6,714 nucleotides of DNA from NCBI GenBank assembly GCA_040757115.1, contig JBFLYA010000205.1, positions 1-6,714 of the forward strand, read 5' to 3'. The position numbers were made by a program, and so were the translations under genes. The notes under the pieces were generated by a model. The model was not told where the DNA came from. It saw only the letters and a list, made by a program, of their open reading frames with translations, and ran no database searches. The stretch is from a bacterium (GTDB taxonomy: Bacteria; UBA9089; CG2-30-40-21; SBAY01). How positions within the stretch are numbered: position 1 is the stretch's first letter; each line of letters begins with the position of its first letter. Below, piece by piece: positions 1 through 6,714 of the stretch.

Positions 1-88
1 AAACGGTTTCAAGCAGTCCTGGTCCAAGTTCCTTATGCACCGCAACCGCAACATCAACTATGATTTTCCCGATTTCATTTTCATTCAT
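1..88 (-). CDS. GxxExxY family protein, N-terminal part (cut by window edge)
   Basis: Twenty-nine codons are visible, from ATG at 88 to the left edge. The translation begins MNENEIGKIIVDVAVAVHKE and continues with LGPGLLETV; the one remaining base at position 1 starts a T-initial codon, as expected for the Tyr that would complete the GLLETVY form of the GxxExxY motif. This is the conserved N-terminus of GxxExxY proteins (about 125-130 residues), a family of unknown function thought to be PD-(D/E)XK nuclease-like. The start is supported by AAAGGA at 96-101, seven bases upstream. It is the first gene after the attC at 128-259, with a leader of about 45 bp from the recombination point, as expected for an integron cassette gene. 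The same family appears, truncated, at 5467-5613 with a similar leader. Confidence 0.8.
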   Translation of the reverse strand, partial: MNENEIGKIIVDVAVAVHKELGPGLLETV

Positions 89-127
89 CTTTGTGTCCTT
101 TGCGTCTCTGTGTGAGTATTTTTATTA

Positions 128-259
128 GTCTAACGATAGAGTTCAGGTGCGGCGGGGAGAATTACCACAAAAGTTTGATAGCAAGATAAAACTTTGAGAG
201 ACTACAAAACTCTGACCACGGCACAGTCCCCCGCCGTCAACTGCAACGCAGGGTTAGAC
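128..259 (-). other. attC site (integron cassette recombination site), end of HEPN cassette
   Basis: On the printed strand the site runs from GTCTAAC (128-134) to GTTAGAC (253-259), both exact matches to the RYYYAAC and GTTRRRY consensus. Inside them two arms pair: left CAGGTGCGGCGGGG against right CCCCGCCGTCAACTG, with one unpaired T at 237 in the right arm. Known attC sites have an extrahelical T on the recombining bottom strand in this position, so the printed strand is the bottom strand and the cassettes read on minus. The exchange point should lie between 134 and 133. The site begins 25 bp after the stop of the 340-residue gene and precedes the GxxExxY gene by about 40 bp. An inner inverted repeat AAAGTTT/AAACTTT lies in the central part. 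Confidence 0.92.
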
Positions 260-1342
260 AAAAGCTTCTAATGAACCAGTCTCATCAAGAGGTTGATATT
301 GCTCGTCCCCAGCTATCAAATGCACGAACATTACTGATCCCTGTTAAATCCAATTGCATCCCCCAGATATTCCTTCTGGCATCATCTGATAGTTTCCAAA
401 ATTCTCTTTGCTTCATTTCAGTTATAAAGTGCTTTCGGATAGTACAACTCTCAAGGATATGAGAATAGGCAAATGTAGCAAGTTGCTCCATCTGACGAGT
501 TCGGTGTAAGGCAACCATTTTTCTGTCATGTTCAGGATACGACACTACTGCTTCCTTCCAATCATTGAGATGCTCAGTCATACTGCGCAACTCAAATGCT
601 TCTTCTATGATTTGTTTTGTATGCGTACTCGCTTTTGCGAATGTTTGACATCGATGTGTAAACTGTCGCTTAGTTTTGCCGACTTCTGGCAAAATCAGTG
701 CTTCTAATGACCGAACAAATTGATGGATTCGCTCGTCACTATGCTCTTTTTGCAAACCATCCATTAGTACCCTCCAACCCCATTTCAAGCGTTTGAAATC
801 ATTAGGGGAAGAGTCCATTTCATCACGGGACTTTCTCAGTTGAACAGCTTTCTCCAGACGCTCTATGGTTACAGGGGTTCGAGAGTAACCCCTCGTTTGA
901 TAGAAAAACGGAAACTCACTCATTTGGCGAATCTCGGACTTTCCGTCAAAAAAAGATCCACACAGCAGGTTTGCACCCTCGTACTCTATGACCCCAGAAA
1001 GTTGTAATAAGCAGAAAGTTTGCGAAAGCCTTTTTTGGAGTTTCTTATGGTGTTCATCGAGCACCTGTGGATTTGCACTACCTTCACTGACGATCATGAT
1101 GAGATTGGAGTTTTCCAATCGCTCCAAGCGAATTGTCCCGATCCACTCTTTCCAATGAGTATCGATTATTACCGGTAATCGGACACAAATCCATGTTCCA
1201 TCAGATAATCGGTGTTGGTAGTTTTGATCATCCGGAAAATCGGTGTAAACGTTCTCAACTGATAGTAGCGCAAACTTACCTTGTCCTACGAACGAAAGTT
1301 CAGCCATTTCCTAACAACCTTCCATCCTCTAAAGTGGCCTAA
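134..1342 (-). mobile_element. Integron gene cassette C (HEPN-like gene plus attC)
   Basis: Bounded by the expected exchange points in the R' boxes of two flanking attC sites, this is a 1209-bp unit with one gene (285-1307) and its own attC at the 3' end. The gene starts about 36 bp after the upstream exchange point and stops 25 bp before its attC. This compact one-gene layout is the standard cassette form. The boundaries are inferred from the known G/TT cleavage rule, not from an observed excision. Confidence 0.8.
285..1307 (-). CDS. HEPN-like (Apea-type) protein, single-gene cassette cargo
   Basis: This 340-residue protein has no signal peptide or membrane segment and should be cytosolic. 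Residues 1-190 form an alpha/beta region I do not recognise, with a hydrophobic strand-rich part (about 40-125). Residues 190-290 are helical and fit the Apea-like HEPN pattern: IHQFVRSLEALILPE (about 194-208), a basic helix with RCQTFA (219-224), then ELRSMTEHLND with R241-x4-H246. The R-x4-6-H motif is the catalytic signature of HEPN ribonucleases, which act in toxin, abortive-infection and CRISPR systems. The ATG at 1307 has GGAAGG and AGGA upstream; neither is ideally spaced. No promoter is obvious, so it may depend on read-through from upstream cassettes. Function as an RNase is inferred. The family call rests on motif and helix pattern only; a non-catalytic HEPN protein is possible. Confidence 0.7.
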   Translation of the reverse strand: MAELSFVGQGKFALLSVENVYTDFPDDQNYQHRLSDGTWICVRLPVIIDTHWKEWIGTIRLERLENSNLIMIVSEGSANPQVLDEHHKKLQKRLSQTFCLLQLSGVIEYEGANLLCGSFFDGKSEIRQMSEFPFFYQTRGYSRTPVTIERLEKAVQLRKSRDEMDSSPNDFKRLKWGWRVLMDGLQKEHSDERIHQFVRSLEALILPEVGKTKRQFTHRCQTFAKASTHTKQIIEEAFELRSMTEHLNDWKEAVVSYPEHDRKMVALHRTRQMEQLATFAYSHILESCTIRKHFITEMKQREFWKLSDDARRNIWGMQLDLTGISNVRAFDSWGRAISTS

Positions 1343-1467
1343 CGATAGAGCTCACCTGCTGCGGGGCGGATTACCACCAAACTTTGTAAACAAGATAAAA
1401 GATTGAGATACCACAAAACTCTAATTACGGTACAGCCCCCGCAGTCAGGTGCAGCGCCGGGTTAGGC
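1337..1467 (-). other. attC site upstream of the HEPN cassette
   Basis: GCCTAAC (1337-1343) and GTTAGGC (1461-1467) are the outer boxes. The arms CACCTGCTGCGGGG and CCCCGCAGTCAGGTG pair, with one unpaired T at 1445, at the same distance (22 bases) from the right end of the site as in the other two attC copies. Inner TACC and GGTA segments give a second short stem. The exchange point is expected between 1343 and 1342. The arm sequence differs from its relatives (CTG in place of GCG-type steps) but stays paired, as expected for a selected hairpin. Confidence 0.92.
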
Positions 1468-1481
1468 AATATCCCCTGGAC

Positions 1482-1706
1482 TCAAGGTCTCCTCTGCTTG
1501 ATTAGATTTTGCTCTCCTCTGTAGTTCCTATTTACGGTTGTAGTATGTCTCTCGTCCTTCGTTTTGGTTGTGGTTCCTGGTCCCTCGACCGCATACCCTA
1601 GTTCTCTGTGGATGCTGACCGCTATCTGATTTTCTCTGGTTCGTCTCTGCGGGAATGCTGTGAGAAACCTTCCTCCTGGTTGCCGCAACAGCTGTAATTG
1701 GATCAT
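1482..1706 (-). CDS. Hypothetical 74-residue ORF, possible small-cassette cargo
   Basis: The ORF encodes a basic, low-hydrophobicity protein starting MIQLQLLRQPGG, rich in Arg, Thr and Gln, with no family that I recognise and no membrane segment. Its support is positional: the ATG lies 28 bp after the exchange point predicted at the collapsed site 1729-1747, and the stop is 14 bp before the attC at 1337-1467, which is the layout of a cassette gene. There is no convincing Shine-Dalgarno sequence before 1706. The composition is unlike a folded protein, so it may be a non-coding or decayed cassette. Confidence 0.3.
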   Translation of the reverse strand: MIQLQLLRQPGGRFLTAFPQRRTRENQIAVSIHRELGYAVEGPGTTTKTKDERHTTTVNRNYRGEQNLIKQRRP

Positions 1707-1728
1707 AATTTATGCGACGGATTCAAGT

Positions 1729-1747
1729 GCCTAACCTTAGATTAGGC
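1729..1747 (-). other. Collapsed attC-like site
   Basis: The 19-bp sequence GCCTAACCTTAGATTAGGC contains an exact R' box (GTTAGGC on minus, 1729-1735) and a one-mismatch opposing box (ATTAGGC in place of GTTAGGC) with only five bases between them. Its left 13 bases differ from the left end of the 6517-6576 site by a single base (GCC against GTC), and its last six bases equal that site's last six, so it looks like that site without its central hairpin. It lies 57 bp beyond the transposase stop and 28 bp before the 74-codon ORF. Confidence 0.4.
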
Positions 1748-1803
1748 AAAAATTAACCCCTCAATCGTCTCTAATAAAGTAGCCTGTCCCCTTTTCCCTT
1801 TTA

Positions 1804-2235
1804 TTAAAAGTCAAGTTTTAACTGGCGTCTGTCTTCTTCTGCTCTTTGATATTGGATGTATTTCTGTATAGTTTGTGCAGTTACTTTGTCGCCGGTTGCA
1901 CGTACAAAATATCCATCGCTCCACATTTCACCGCCCCAAAGTGACTTACGAAGCTTAGGAAATTCTTCAAATAGTTTTATAGCAGAAATGCTTTTTAGAA
2001 TTTGTACCAACCGTGAAACGCTATAGCGAGGAGGTGCTGAAACAAAAAGATGAACATGGTCTTTCTCTATGCCTTGTTCCAAGATTTCAAATCCATAGCG
2101 TTCGGCTATTCCTTGAAATATTTCTTTAAGTCGTTCTGCTATTTTGTCGTCAAGTACTACTCGTCTATACTTCGGTATCCAGACAAAATGATATTTGAGT
2201 TCATATACAGCGTGACTTGCTCGTCTTAGCTCCAC
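1804..2235 (-). mobile_element. tnpA: IS200/IS605-family TnpA (Y1 HUH transposase) segment, in frame with the upstream gene
   Basis: The last 143 codons match a full-length single-strand transposase. GTG at 2235 is the probable native start (VELRRASHAVYELKYHFVW). Counting from it, the HUH motif is H60-V-H62 within KDHVHLF, and the catalytic tyrosine is Y126 in IQKYIQYQ with Q130 four residues later, the same Tyr-to-Gln spacing as in IS608 TnpA. The length and all key residues are intact. No tnpB follows, so this is an IS200-type element. I cannot place its ends: no clear subterminal hairpin is visible upstream, and downstream there are only a small CTTTT/AAAAG hairpin at 1799-1811 and a GGGGACAGGCTACTTT stretch on minus. 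The insertion seems to have removed the stop codon of the hydrolase-like gene. Confidence 0.85.
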
Positions 2236-4986
2236 ATGAGTTCCAGAAAGTAACGACTCGCTCTGACTGATGACGGTGACGTATGCTCGTGAATTGATGC
2301 CATTGGGAACTTCGCAGGTAAACTTCACTTGATTTTCACCTGGTTCGAGAATAGGCACATCGCCTTGGGGCGTCACTTCGCTGATTAGTTCGCCTTTGGG
2401 ACCATAGAGTTTACAGTCGGACATCGAGTGGAACTCCAGATAACATCCACTTTCGATTTCTAGAGGAAAATACATCGTCTTGTCGCCGATGGTGACGGCA
2501 GGATTGCAAAGTTTTACATTGACCAGAGGTAACGCCCGGATTGAGCTTAGATAGCAGGTGACCGTTTTGTTAGGCGGAAGGTTGTTGTACCAAAGGCTTA
2601 GGGATTCCATCTGACTGTAGTTTACGGATTCGCGGTAGATTGAATAAATGCTACCGTAAGGCCACGAGTAGTCGGCATAGCGTTCTCCCTCCGGTTCGAT
2701 TAGTTCAAAATAACGCCAACCTGTAAAATCGACTATCACGTAATGCTCACCAATCCCACTAACGAGATGTTCGGGACTTCTCACCTGGAAATTCAAAACT
2801 TCTCCCTGACCATCGCCGTGGATCCAAACTCCCATGCCCTGTTGCTGGCTGAGGTCTAACGGTGGCGAAAACTTCTTGCCCATTTTAGTCCATGTGCCTT
2901 GTCGATTTTCCAGATTACTTGACGCGGTATAGCGTCCACTTATTTGTCCAAACTTCACTTTCACTGACGAAGGTTGTAGTTCTGCGGTAATTCCCGATGC
3001 TGTATCTTGTTCTGAAAAATCACCAACATCGGTGAAGTCCGTTAGTATCGCATTTTCTGGGTCATCATACGGTCCTGCCGACATCAGTGATTCGATGCGC
3101 AGTTGCACCGGTTGTTCGCCAAACTTATTGTGCGTTTTCCAAACGTTGCTCCATCCGTCGATGCCCTCCACTTTGTGTTTGACATACTGAATCGGCCTCA
3201 ACTTCCATTCTCCGTCGTCGCTTTGTATTAATTTGAACTCATCGCCGGGAACTCTCAACTTTGCTTTGACAGATTCAGGAAAATAATTCGCGTGGCGCAG
3301 ATTTTCATATCTTTTCATGATGGCGGCTAATCTTGGCAAGGCGGGAATATTGGAGACATTATCGGGGTTAATTCCCATGATGGCTAAACCTGTATCAGTG
3401 CTGAGACATTTGCCGCACAGATATTCTATATCATCAGCGAAGGTCGGTTCACCCTGCTGATTAGACCAAGTTTTAAACGCCCACCACCCAAGTTGCCCTG
3501 GTAAAAACATGCGGCGGCATTCTTCGTTGGCTTCGCAGTGGATGTCGATGAACTTTTTGTGGCTGCGCGTCGGATGGTCCCAAGCTCCCAGACGAGAACG
3601 GACATACCAGAGGTGATGGTGGAACGTGCTCATCTCCATAGCCGCCGGTCTTTTCAAATGTTTCCAAATCTCAAATACGTACTTCGACCCGTAGTGCCAG
3701 CCATTTTCCCAACCACCCAAGACATCCTCTCCATCCAGAGCATCCAGATACATCATGTCAAATCCACCTTCATTGAAGGCTTCCGCCGTCTTGGCCGCCA
3801 CTTCGGAAAGAAGCGTCGAATCTCCATCTGGCGCAAATAGACCGAAGCATTCTTTTAGATGATGTACCTTTGCGCCTTTATTATGGGGCGAGGGTTTCGT
3901 ACCACAAGCGCCGCGTTGGCAACCGGTGAAAGCGTAAGAAGACTCTTTGGAAACGCCGCTGTAGGTAATGAGTTCGTCGTTTATCTGAAGCGTCACGCTG
4001 TTGCGCACGAAAAATCCCGTGATAGCGGACATATCCTGCGTCGACTCGACTACTGGCACTTGGTCTGAATCCGCCGTCAAGGATTCCGCCAAAGTAAATG
4101 TCGCATCCTTCGCCAGCCGTGGGTCGGGCACAGGTGTCACCCAGGGACAGCTTTTGTCGATAAAAAACGCATACGTATGCAAACCAGCCATAATTCCCGC
4201 TTCATGTAGCTTATCTGTCACGGCTCTGAGACTGGCAAGTCCGCTCGGGTAAGTCTCTGGATTGGGTCGGCAGTCTCCGAATCGGAATGATTTGCCTCCG
4301 TGAAAATCGATTTGATTGATTCCGAGACTTTGTGCCAATTGAATCCAATCGTCCACCTTCTCTTCTGAAAGATTACCGAAGTTGAACAGGTATGAGCCTT
4401 TGCTGATTTCAGCGTCCAACGCCCACGGCCCGCCTACGGGCGACTGCGGCAACTCTTCGGCGGCGCTAACTACCTCCTGCATGACCCGACGGAGTTCGCT
4501 CTGAGGACATCCGATTATCGCAACTTTTGCTCCAGCAAAACCAAATTTCGGGTAGCACATCGCCCTTAGACGACTATTCGCACGAGGCAATTCATGAACA
4601 TTGGTTTGCAGATTCAACGCAAGCGTGCAACCGGCGAACGGTTCTTCTGGAATTCCTTGAAGTGTGAGCGGAAGGTCAACAAATGTCAACTCTTCAACCT
4701 GTTCACCTGTCACAGATAAAACCTCCAGAACGAAATAGTGTTCCTTCGCCGTTACTCCTATCACAACGCTGACTTTCGATTCACCGAAGCGAACAGTTAT
4801 TTTCCCGGCAGCGTATGATGCCTCAGAAGCATTGAATTCCTTATTCTCTTTCTTCACCCGTGCGAACGATGACTTAGGCTCTTGGACGCAATAATCTGTG
4901 TTAGTCCGGTTGTCGATGAAATGAAGATTAGTGCCATCTGACCCGATAACGTATCGGGCGTACTTATTCTCGATTGAGATAGTCAT
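1804..4986 (-). CDS. Glycoside-hydrolase-like protein fused in frame to IS200/IS605 TnpA
   Basis: This 1060-residue product starts at MTISIENKY; the ATG at 4986 follows a strong AGGAGG (4991-4996 region). An upstream in-frame ATG at 5139 would add 51 residues and has weaker AAGG support. No signal peptide is seen, so it should be cytosolic. Residues 1-180 are beta-rich, like the front sandwich of many hydrolases. Residues about 185-560 look like a TIM barrel: GGPWALDAEISKG (185-197), INQIDFHGG, AGIMAGLHTY, and FDMMYLDALDG (409-419) with D415 and D418 as candidate catalytic acids, then WDHPTRSHKKFIDIH (469-483). Residues about 700-810 and 820-910 look like jelly-roll sandwich modules. From about 918 the frame continues into a complete TnpA. 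I recall similar proteins from Poribacteria-like genomes; no substrate can be named. Own promoter at 5177-5205. Large for cassette cargo. Confidence 0.75.
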   Translation of the reverse strand: MTISIENKYARYVIGSDGTNLHFIDNRTNTDYCVQEPKSSFARVKKENKEFNASEASYAAGKITVRFGESKVSVVIGVTAKEHYFVLEVLSVTGEQVEELTFVDLPLTLQGIPEEPFAGCTLALNLQTNVHELPRANSRLRAMCYPKFGFAGAKVAIIGCPQSELRRVMQEVVSAAEELPQSPVGGPWALDAEISKGSYLFNFGNLSEEKVDDWIQLAQSLGINQIDFHGGKSFRFGDCRPNPETYPSGLASLRAVTDKLHEAGIMAGLHTYAFFIDKSCPWVTPVPDPRLAKDATFTLAESLTADSDQVPVVESTQDMSAITGFFVRNSVTLQINDELITYSGVSKESSYAFTGCQRGACGTKPSPHNKGAKVHHLKECFGLFAPDGDSTLLSEVAAKTAEAFNEGGFDMMYLDALDGEDVLGGWENGWHYGSKYVFEIWKHLKRPAAMEMSTFHHHLWYVRSRLGAWDHPTRSHKKFIDIHCEANEECRRMFLPGQLGWWAFKTWSNQQGEPTFADDIEYLCGKCLSTDTGLAIMGINPDNVSNIPALPRLAAIMKRYENLRHANYFPESVKAKLRVPGDEFKLIQSDDGEWKLRPIQYVKHKVEGIDGWSNVWKTHNKFGEQPVQLRIESLMSAGPYDDPENAILTDFTDVGDFSEQDTASGITAELQPSSVKVKFGQISGRYTASSNLENRQGTWTKMGKKFSPPLDLSQQQGMGVWIHGDGQGEVLNFQVRSPEHLVSGIGEHYVIVDFTGWRYFELIEPEGERYADYSWPYGSIYSIYRESVNYSQMESLSLWYNNLPPNKTVTCYLSSIRALPLVNVKLCNPAVTIGDKTMYFPLEIESGCYLEFHSMSDCKLYGPKGELISEVTPQGDVPILEPGENQVKFTCEVPNGINSRAYVTVISQSESLLSGTHVELRRASHAVYELKYHFVWIPKYRRVVLDDKIAERLKEIFQGIAERYGFEILEQGIEKDHVHLFVSAPPRYSVSRLVQILKSISAIKLFEEFPKLRKSLWGGEMWSDGYFVRATGDKVTAQTIQKYIQYQRAEEDRRQLKLDF

Positions 4987-5176
4987 GATTCCCTCCTCTT
5001 CCCTACCGAGCCATTTTGTGAAGTAATTCGGAAGTCTAAAATGAAAACTCAGTTTCTGGGTTTCAACTGTAATTCTCCAGATATTCCTTAAAAGCTTCGC
5101 CCAATTTTTGAACTGATAGGAAATTACTTTTTGGTGCATTTTGGATGTTACCTTCAGTTTTGCCCGTTATGGGAAT

Positions 5177-5205
5177 ATTTTACCAAAATCTTTCCCTATG
5201 GTCAA
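5177..5205 (-). promoter_or_regulatory. Sigma70-type promoter for the hydrolase-like gene
   Basis: On minus, TTGACC (5205-5200) and TAAAAT (5182-5177) are separated by exactly 17 bases. Transcription should begin near 5170, giving a leader of roughly 185 nt to the ATG at 4986, or about 30 nt to the alternative ATG at 5139. It sits in an AT-rich stretch and is the best promoter match I found in the window. It shows that the big gene does not depend on read-through from the integron promoter. Confidence 0.7.
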
Positions 5206-5466
5206 CAAAAATTTTTAACTGATCACCAAAAAAAGATCAAAAATTAGGTTCAAAAATAAGTTTGATGAGACAAAAACGAGAAAGTTTCATTTTAGCCATC
5301 AGATTTTGGACACACTTATCCTGCATGGTATGCTGAGGGGAGGAAAGTAGGATTACAAAACAGGTGAGAATTTAGGAAGGTTATCATCCACCAGAGGCAT
5401 TTGCCATCATAAAACCACTTCTTAGGTTTTGGCATGGTCTTCAGGATTTCCTCAATCTCTTCTTCT

Positions 5467-5613
5467 TTATAGACAATTTAATGCTATCCCTGCAAGAGCC
5501 ATTTCTCTGGCCAGGCATTGTTCGTAAGTAGATTCAAGTAAACCTGGGTCAAGAGCTCGATGCACCTCTATAGCACATCCAATAATTTTATTTGATAATG
5601 CATCAAATTTCAC
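5467..5613 (-). pseudogene. GxxExxY family protein, truncated
   Basis: GTG at 5613, six bases after AAAGG, opens a 48-codon frame starting [20 protein letters not shown] and continuing [28 protein letters not shown] before TAA. This is the N-terminal third of a GxxExxY protein, with the motif GLLESTY intact and the usual Gly before Pro replaced by Asp. The catalytic-like core of the family (the DxxV...ELK-type segment) is absent. In the next frame the sequence stays open for 51 more codons, to 5316, but that peptide ([20 protein letters not shown] onward) does not resemble the missing part. The gene is therefore deleted rather than simply frameshifted. It begins 36 bp after the exchange point of the attC at 5644-5775, so it is probably the original cargo of this cassette. 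Confidence 0.75.
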
Positions 5614-5643
5614 TTCGTGCCTTTCGTGGTTTAATCTCTTTTA

Positions 5644-5775
5644 GTCTAACGATAGAGTTCAGCGGCGGCGGGGAGGATTGCCACTAAACTTTGTAACCAC
5701 GATTACCTATTGAAATACTACAAAACTTTCAATCACGGCACAGCCCCCGCCGTCCGCTGCAACGATTTGTTAGGC
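5644..5775 (-). other. attC site, end of the toxin-antitoxin cassette
   Basis: GTCTAAC (5644-5650) and GTTAGGC (5769-5775) flank arms CAGCGGCGGCGGGG and CCCCGCCGTCCGCTG, with one unpaired T at 5753, again 22 bases from the right end of the site. Inner TGCC and GGCA segments pair where the 1337-1467 site has TACC and GGTA, a compensatory change. The site follows the antitoxin stop by 131 bp and precedes the truncated GxxExxY gene by 30 bp. Its exchange point is expected between 5650 and 5649. Confidence 0.92.
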
Positions 5776-5906: not shown

Positions 5907-6146
5907 TCAAGCATGAACCATTATACCAGCTTTTGTCCTTGTGTGCCTCTTAGCAAAAGTTGGAGAATAGGCTTCAATTCTGCGCATAGCTTGCCTATCA
6001 TAGACTCTTTCATCACAATCTGGACACACATAGAACTCTAACGATGGAACTGTATAGGATCGCCCTTGATACTTTTCAGTCCAGTCCTGCTTTACCTTTT
6101 TGATTTTATTACTACCGCAAGATGGACATATTGCAATTTTTATCAT
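5907..6146 (-). CDS. YgiT-type zinc-finger protein, MqsA-like antitoxin
   Basis: The 79-residue protein carries CPSC at 7-10 and CPDC at 41-44, the two halves of a zinc ribbon, with a hydrophobic stretch LEFYVCP between them. This is the N-terminal domain of MqsA/YgiT antitoxins. The C-terminal HTH of full MqsA (about 131 residues) is missing; the tail is basic (residues 55-72, with several Arg and Lys), so DNA binding, if any, would be through another route. Short YgiT-type proteins of this size are regular partners of DUF4258 toxins. The ATG at 6146 is preceded by AAGGAG, and only 15 bases separate it from the stop of the upstream gene, so the two are co-transcribed and translationally close. 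It is expected to bind and block the toxin in the cytosol. Confidence 0.85.
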   Translation of the reverse strand: MIKIAICPSCGSNKIKKVKQDWTEKYQGRSYTVPSLEFYVCPDCDERVYDRQAMRRIEAYSPTFAKRHTRTKAGIMVHA

Positions 6147-6161
6147 TGTTCTTATCTCCTT

Positions 6162-6473
6162 TCAAAGTGCTTTCTTGGAAGAAATGAGGAAGTAATAAGT
6201 TTCTTCTCCATCTTCACGAACGAATTTACCCTTAGAATAGATTGCCAATCCATCTAAGTTCGTGCTTTGAATGACATAAAGATATTCTCTGGAGTGTTTA
6301 CGAAACGGACTCTCTGAGCGAATCGTCTTGTAAATAGCAACAGCATTGAGAATTGACTCAGCCACATCAAGTTCTCTAAAACAATCTGCCTCCATTTCCA
6401 AGCGTGCCTTTTCGCTAAAGGCATATCGCCTCTCAAGAATTGCTCGTTTGATTCGTACTAAAACATTATTCAT
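6162..6473 (-). CDS. DUF4258 / MqsR-like toxin
   Basis: The 103-residue protein is basic at the N-terminus (VRIKRAILERRY), followed by FSEKARLEMEAD (19-30), a helix that matches the F-S-x-H/K-A-x-x-x-M segment of DUF4258 proteins, then LDVAESILNAVAIYK (35-49), a strand region EYLYVIQS and the C-terminal strand ETYYFLISSKK. DUF4258 proteins share the small RelE/MqsR-like fold, and MqsR is an mRNA interferase; ribonuclease activity here is inferred. The toxin-first order and the zinc-ribbon partner immediately downstream are those of mqsRA. The ATG at 6473 has only a weak purine-rich AAGAGAAAA upstream, which may keep toxin output low. Another internal reading frame at this locus is only a shadow. 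Confidence 0.8.
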   Translation of the reverse strand: MNNVLVRIKRAILERRYAFSEKARLEMEADCFRELDVAESILNAVAIYKTIRSESPFRKHSREYLYVIQSTNLDGLAIYSKGKFVREDGEETYYFLISSKKAL

Positions 6474-6528
6474 TGTTTGTTTTTCTCTTATTTCACTTTC
6501 AATGCAACAGTAAGTAGTCTAACCTTAG

Positions 6529-6549
6529 ATTATACTGCCTATTGGCAGT
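6529..6549 (-). promoter_or_regulatory. Possible -10 box and operator-like palindrome for the TA pair
   Basis: On minus, a consensus TATAAT (6534-6529) is immediately preceded by the perfect palindrome ACTGCCAATAGGCAGT (6549-6534). A start near 6522 would give a leader of about 49 nt. The hexamer 17 bases upstream (AATATA) is not a good -35 box. TA operons are commonly autoregulated through palindromes overlapping their promoters, so this fits, but the same palindrome is the core of the attC-like hairpin. Confidence 0.3.
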
Positions 6550-6569
6550 TTTATATTACTGCATTATAA
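6530..6569. repeat. 40-bp imperfect palindromic repeat, copy 1
   Basis: It runs from TTATACTGCC to GCATTATAA and matches the copy at 6664-6704 except for three substitutions and one indel. The termini are inverted (TTATA-x-TGC against GCA-x-TATAA). It lies exactly between the outer boxes of the attC-like site, offset from the left box by six bases and touching the right box. Confidence 0.75.
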
Positions 6570-6663
6570 GTTAGGCTATTTATAGAATAGCATAAATAAA
6601 ATATTCTGTCAAGAAAAATTTTAATATCAAAATTAGAAAATACTGAAAAATAACATCCTGGTA

Positions 6664-6704
6664 TTATACTGCCTATTAGCGGTTTTTATTTTACTGCATT
6701 ATAA
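6664..6704. repeat. 41-bp imperfect palindromic repeat, copy 2
   Basis: This second copy has the same termini as copy 1, but its inner hairpin is weakened (ACTGCC-TATT-AGCGGT, two changes from a perfect stem). Neither flank has the RYYYAAC/GTTRRRY boxes: the left flank is CATCCTGGTA and the right flank is a T-rich run. It could be a decayed attC or an independent small hairpin element. Confidence 0.75.
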
Positions 6705-6714
6705 ATTTTTTTCT

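Follow-up and report, generated by a model that had tools for sequence, protein, structure and literature searches.

What kind of integron locus holds three homologous repeats resembling attC sites and no intact integrase is the question raised by the window, our term for the whole stretch of DNA analysed here, which is the entire 6,714-bp contig C205 of a draft MAG (4.3 Mb, 462 contigs). A sequence-only reading had described it as a minus-strand array of three cassettes that was likely part of a longer, sedentary-type array or a cluster of attC sites lacking an integrase (CALIN). Our analysis, for which a genome of the same genus (G001) and a genome from another family of the same phylum (G039) served as comparisons, gives a partly different answer, namely that two partly decayed platforms very probably meet in the window and that both belong to a sedentary chromosomal integron with several platforms. 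The integrase IntI of integrons acts at the R' box, joining double-stranded attI to attC in the form of its folded bottom strand, and in this way cassettes are gained at attI; excision takes place between attC sites. The elements of such a system seen here are the structure of attC, attI, cassette borders in R' boxes, remnants of intI and a single intact integrase on another contig.

The three repeats are genuine attC sites

The sites lie at 128-259 (attC1, 132 bp), 1337-1467 (attC2, 131 bp) and 5644-5775 (attC3, 132 bp), all on the plus strand, which is the recombining (bottom) strand, with R' boxes at 128-134, where crossover is expected, 1337-1343 and 5644-5650. Common to all three are the R boxes (GTCTAAC/GCCTAAC...GTTAGAC/GTTAGGC), the spacer GATAGAG, GC-rich arms and a single unpaired T approximately 22 nt from the right end, and the plus strand of each folds as DNA with a z-score of -3.8 to -4.0 relative to shuffles. 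To avoid circularity, we built a covariance model (R2) without the window's own sites, using 30 short attC sites of about 60 bp from the window's genome and G001, and this model matches attC1, attC2 and attC3 with E-values of 3.8e-10, 2.2e-11 and 3.9e-15, respectively. Our attC calls rest on home-made covariance models and not on IntegronFinder's own; a search of Rfam at the gathering threshold reported no attC family.

Covariation points the same way. Among 18 long attC sites, several arm pairs have changed on both sides with pairing kept, and the stem of the 30 short sites contains 75 both-side changes compared to 31 in shuffles, while sliding the pairing of the short sites by a single column lowers it from 87% to 32-37%. 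With their imperfect palindrome, R' and R'' boxes, paired L arms and extrahelical base, the window's three sites are genuine attC, and the earlier description of three homologous sites of 131-132 bp whose arms differ yet remain paired is confirmed, both by the boxes, spacer and unpaired T that they share and by the both-side changes in the long and short sites.

Cassettes share borders inside the R' box and belong to extensive arrays

The 261-bp cassette body at 1468-1728 (minus strand), which lacks a convincing ORF, is found in four places, namely the window, L030 (2912-3172), L023 (2679-2939) and L141 of G001 (249-509), and its copies are 92-94% identical and bounded by attC. The left neighbours of the four copies all differ, with homology starting at the CTAAC of the attC2 R' box, and the right neighbours differ as well, with homology stopping at the GCCTAAC of window positions 1729-1735. 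On the attC1 side, the gene start to the left of the site has copies at 99% identity in both C244, where attI adjoins it, and C98, where another attC does so; identity with both contigs stops right after CTAAC, at window position 134. Sequence to the left of attC3 is common to several arrays up to position 5650, and a 765-bp cassette common to C98 and contig C89 of G001 shows the same border behaviour. Cassette borders are thus found inside the R' box (GTTRRRY), and because homology ends in R' boxes beside differing neighbours, the cassettes move as units. The sequence-only reading had staked its case on polymorphism borders falling in these boxes, and it survives on this point, given that they do so at 134/135, at about 1339-1343 and at 5650.

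We detected at least 137 attC sites on 32 loci of the window's genome (112 long and 25 short) and at least 88 in G001, both counts being lower bounds obtained with two models over those 32 loci and G001. Among the 120 cassettes that bear an ORF of at least 80 aa, 108 have their longest ORF on the attC-sense strand (60 of 69 in the window's genome and 48 of 51 in G001; binomial p 9e-21), such that the 3' ends of genes point toward attC in one orientation along the array. The sites are also highly similar and lineage-specific, being up to 99% identical within the genome, where some adjoin the intact intI on C39. Around IntI genes from other taxa, R2 finds almost no sites, which is the pattern that lineage-specific sedentary integrons should show (PMC8352920, PMC8618304). 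The 16S rRNA gene of the genome, which has no more than 83% identity to those of the named genomes used for comparison, lies on C63, the contig joined to the window by a 127-bp overlap, and this argues for a chromosomal location in the case of C63. The number of sites and the orientation bias support the earlier proposal that the minus-strand cassettes form part of a longer array of the sedentary type.

An attI region lies at the right end of the window

Positions 6517-6714 (plus strand) contain an attI and intI promoter region, copies of which flank intI remnants on C118, C30, C116 and C63 and also precede an intact intI in G039. In C118, C30 and C116, it takes the form of a 200-bp element starting GTCTAACCTTAGATTATACTGCC, with the first cassette on one side and the intI remnant on the other, and an element 75% identical to it lies before the intact, standard-length intI of G039; because the element recurs beside intI on several contigs and again ahead of the intact gene, we read 6517 as attI. 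The genome holds about eight copies of the attI region, several of which adjoin intI remnants. Full or long copies of the element are also present in C244, C298, C5 and C60 and short pieces of it in C326, C39, C229, C234 and C98. Consensus matches place a candidate cassette promoter Pc at 6584-6612 (minus strand; TTGACA-17-TATTCT with an extended -10), oriented toward the first cassette, and a weak candidate intI promoter at 6643-6670 (plus strand). We also considered whether the CTAACCTTAGATT sites are tiny or collapsed attC or toxin-antitoxin operators, which is ruled out for 6517 by the 200-bp element beside intI.

The last 127 bases of the window (6588-6714, plus strand) are the first 127 of C63, an exact stretch that occurs in no other contig, and C63 carries an interrupted intI along with the 16S rRNA gene. 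A join of C205 to C63, based on this exact overlap and not on a spanning read, would place the disrupted intI on the plus strand about 80 bp past the end of the window at 6714; on C63, the gene (MNLLEQVSDVMRKKHYSIRT...) starts at approximately 201, and an insert of about 150 bp breaks it. The inserted sequence (L025 on C63, approximately 685-840) has ends, GGTTATTA and TAATAACTG, that resemble inverted repeats, and it looks like a MITE. Elsewhere, the same CGACCTGTGCAGG... stretch replaces the start of intI after attI on C30 (L020, about 8120), on C5 (L160, about 5597) and on C97 of G001 (L158, about 7791), which suggests that a joint made by a deletion or an insertion has recurred or is common to these places.

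Via the 127-bp join, attI would lie between the first cassette and an intI gene that is divergent from the cassettes. The platform lacks an intact IntI, the C63 copy being interrupted, and the mark of a CALIN, an attC cluster with neither attI nor integrase beside it, is not seen. The earlier statement that no integrase is in view therefore stands for an intact integrase within the window and fails for the platform as a whole, considering the attI at 6517-6714 and the disrupted intI beyond the contig end, and these same features leave the proposal of a CALIN without an integrase unsupported.

A putative second attI borders a stretch that looks like non-cassette DNA

The earlier cassette layout had overlooked two borders, at 1729-1735 and 6517-6523. 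The former belongs to a 19-bp segment at 1729-1747 (plus strand; GCCTAAC CTTAGATTAGGC) that carries the CTAACCTTAGATT motif of the attI copies and sits exactly where the 1468-1728 cassette ends. We read this short segment as what is left of a second attI that has lost its integrase, and such a remnant implies that there are two integron platforms in the window and not, as previously supposed, a single array of three cassettes.

What follows, at 1748-5477, looks like non-cassette DNA. It includes a 1111-aa ORF at 1804-5139 (minus strand), glycosidase-like with an IS200 TnpA in frame at its C-terminus (aa 972-1098; Y1_Tnp 5.2e-43, IS200 1.2e-46), and this ORF does not conform to the claim that all genes in the window fit the cassette layout. 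The single frame arises because a glycosidase-like ORF of 970 aa runs at its end into the transposase without a change of frame. No close relative of the 1111-aa ORF was found in 30 other genomes, the best match having 29% identity, and a PDB search with the glycosidase-like part returned marginal matches only. At 5102-5477 lies a dispersed repeat that is 71-78% identical to sequences in L153, L024 and L170; this repeat of about 380 bp is also common to L167, and its copies lie outside an attC context. Directly next to the stretch, at 5482-5640 (minus strand), lies a second cassette gene of the GxxExxY/PDDEXK_3 type, truncated to a 5' part of some 50 codons (PF13366, 5.3e-10 over 53 aa). We infer that 1748-5477 was inserted by rearrangement; alternatively, it could be an oversized cassette that has lost its own attC.

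Cassette genes and ORF-less cassettes

At the left end of the window, positions 1-92 (minus strand) hold the 5' end of a GxxExxY/PDDEXK_3-type gene that belongs to the next cassette and is cut by the contig end; its match to PF13366 is weak (20.6 bits on 30 aa, below the curated cut-off), and the sequence recurs in C244 and C98, next to attI in the former and to another attC in the latter. The cassette gene at 285-1307 (minus strand) encodes 340 aa and has its stop codon 25 bp from attC1. Neither Pfam nor PADLOC assigned a domain or function to its product, and the gene was not found in G001. The first cassette at the right end contains a gene for an MqsA/YgiT-type zinc-finger protein at 5907-6146 (minus strand; YgiT_finger 33.2 bits, cut-off 20.2), the probable antitoxin of this cassette, and upstream of it a gene at 6162-6473 (minus strand) for a 103-aa protein that has no family match and that gene order alone marks as the probable toxin partner.

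A set of 108 cassette ORFs includes matches to the PIN, BrnT, HigB, HepT, ParE-like, CopG, TumE and HEPN/nucleotidyltransferase families as well as to restriction enzymes and DNA methylases, which is ordinary cargo for integrons. Cassettes without an ORF are common. One such cassette of 186 bp (L023, 9139-9324, and 18 other places) has copies that are 90-100% identical, 14 of them here and five in G001. No promoter in the cassette sense was found in the ORF-less cassette.

One intact integrase remains in the genome

A search with TIGR02249 identified one full-model integrase, a 460-aa IntI encoded on C39 (L019, 13616-14995, minus strand; 372.5 bits versus a cut-off of 265), together with about six broken intI copies on C63, C30, C118, C116, C114 and C324. 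The intact protein is extended at its N-terminus by about 137 aa; this extension, which 40 or more homologues in other taxa also carry, weakly matches a second SAM-like core-binding domain (Phage_int_SAM_4). Literature searches with strict terms returned nothing on N-terminally extended IntI and nothing on sedentary integrons in MAGs. We infer that this integrase still moves cassettes of window-type arrays in trans. A more speculative and rather doubtful extension of this idea is a distributed integron, in which about eight near-identical attI platforms, having independently lost their own standard-length integrases to decay, would all be served in trans by the single divergent, long IntI, with cassettes moving among many docking sites. 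If it were true that one intact integrase serves all platforms, the system would be an unusual one.

Two decayed platforms and their rivals

In our preferred reading, the right-hand platform would begin with the disrupted intI just past 6714 and the attI at about 6517, followed by a first cassette with the toxin-antitoxin-like pair, closed by attC3, and a second cassette, with the GxxExxY gene, cut off at about 5480. The left-hand platform would begin with the attI remnant at 1729-1747, followed by a first cassette without an ORF, closed by attC2, a second with the 340-aa gene, closed by attC1, and then a GxxExxY cassette that the contig end cuts short. The intI of this platform would be gone, with the repeat, the glycosidase-like gene and the IS200 transposase in its place. 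Were the window instead a CALIN, its cassettes would have been laid down by an integrase elsewhere and it would possess no platform of its own, which agrees with the lack of an intact integrase in the window and the presence of one on another contig; nonetheless, we consider this improbable in light of the complete attI region at 6517-6714, the interrupted intI on the contig that shares the last 127 bp, and the attI remnant at 1729.

The continuous array of the original description, in which 1343-5649 would be a 4.3-kb cassette, draws on the fact that full attC sites in the window number only three, but it is very improbable: three other places have 1343-1734 as a complete cassette on its own, neither attC nor gene continuity links it to 1748-5643, and an attI-type motif lies at the joint. 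Finally, a Y1 transposase nearby and repeats that are numerous and up to 99% identical might suggest palindromic mobile elements of the MITE or REP type, unrelated to integrons and moved by the window's IS200/RAYT-like transposase. We give this idea almost no credence, as it is at odds with the canonical layout of R and L boxes, the orientation bias of the genes, the adjacency to intI and attI, the occurrence of the same boxes in both short and long site types, and borders at which a gene and its site are exchanged as one whole unit, the border test already disfavouring it.

Comparison with known integrons

Every component of the window's system is already known, and the element is a sedentary chromosomal integron. 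Its striking features are how many attI platforms a single genome contains and how wide a range of decay stages they span; no equal case is known to us from a non-systematic look at the literature. Integron decay in progress can be seen in the genome and G001, where integrases beside recognisable attI copies range from intact through MITE-like-interrupted, frameshifted and truncated to lost, and cassettes common to the two genomes at shifted positions are natural evidence, from an uncultivated group, that cassettes move. Integrons are known to be spread across phyla, with up to 107 attC sites in one archaeal MAG (PMC9668308).

The closest likeness is to the superintegron type of Vibrio, which similarly has many cassettes, near-identical lineage-specific attC of about 130 bp, mostly hypothetical and toxin-antitoxin or defence cargo, and an intI divergent from the array (PMC8618304, PMC11023631). 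Unlike that type, the present system belongs to an uncultivated lineage, possesses a second, short attC type (about 60 bp) with the same boxes, and combines about eight attI platforms with one intact and about six broken intI genes in one draft genome. More than one intI occurs in over one fifth of integron-bearing lineages, and pseudogenes make up approximately one third of known intI genes (PMC2426708). A further parallel is one of length: the IntI of one clade (clade 15, Nemergut et al. 2008) exceed those of other clades by about 120 aa (PMC2426708), and our 460-aa IntI has its N-terminal extension with the weak second SAM-like match. ORF-less cassettes, some with promoter activity, are on record as cited in PMC8618304 (reference 16 there); here, by comparison, one 186-bp type recurs 14 times in a single genome and five times in G001. 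Lastly, the proposed origins of CALINs include the loss of intI by mutation, insertion or deletion (PMC8618304). The arrays described here resemble CALINs in having lost or broken integrases but differ from them in that attI and intI remnants are still recognisable, hence intermediate stages are visible and the origin of CALINs by intI loss becomes directly checkable within one lineage.
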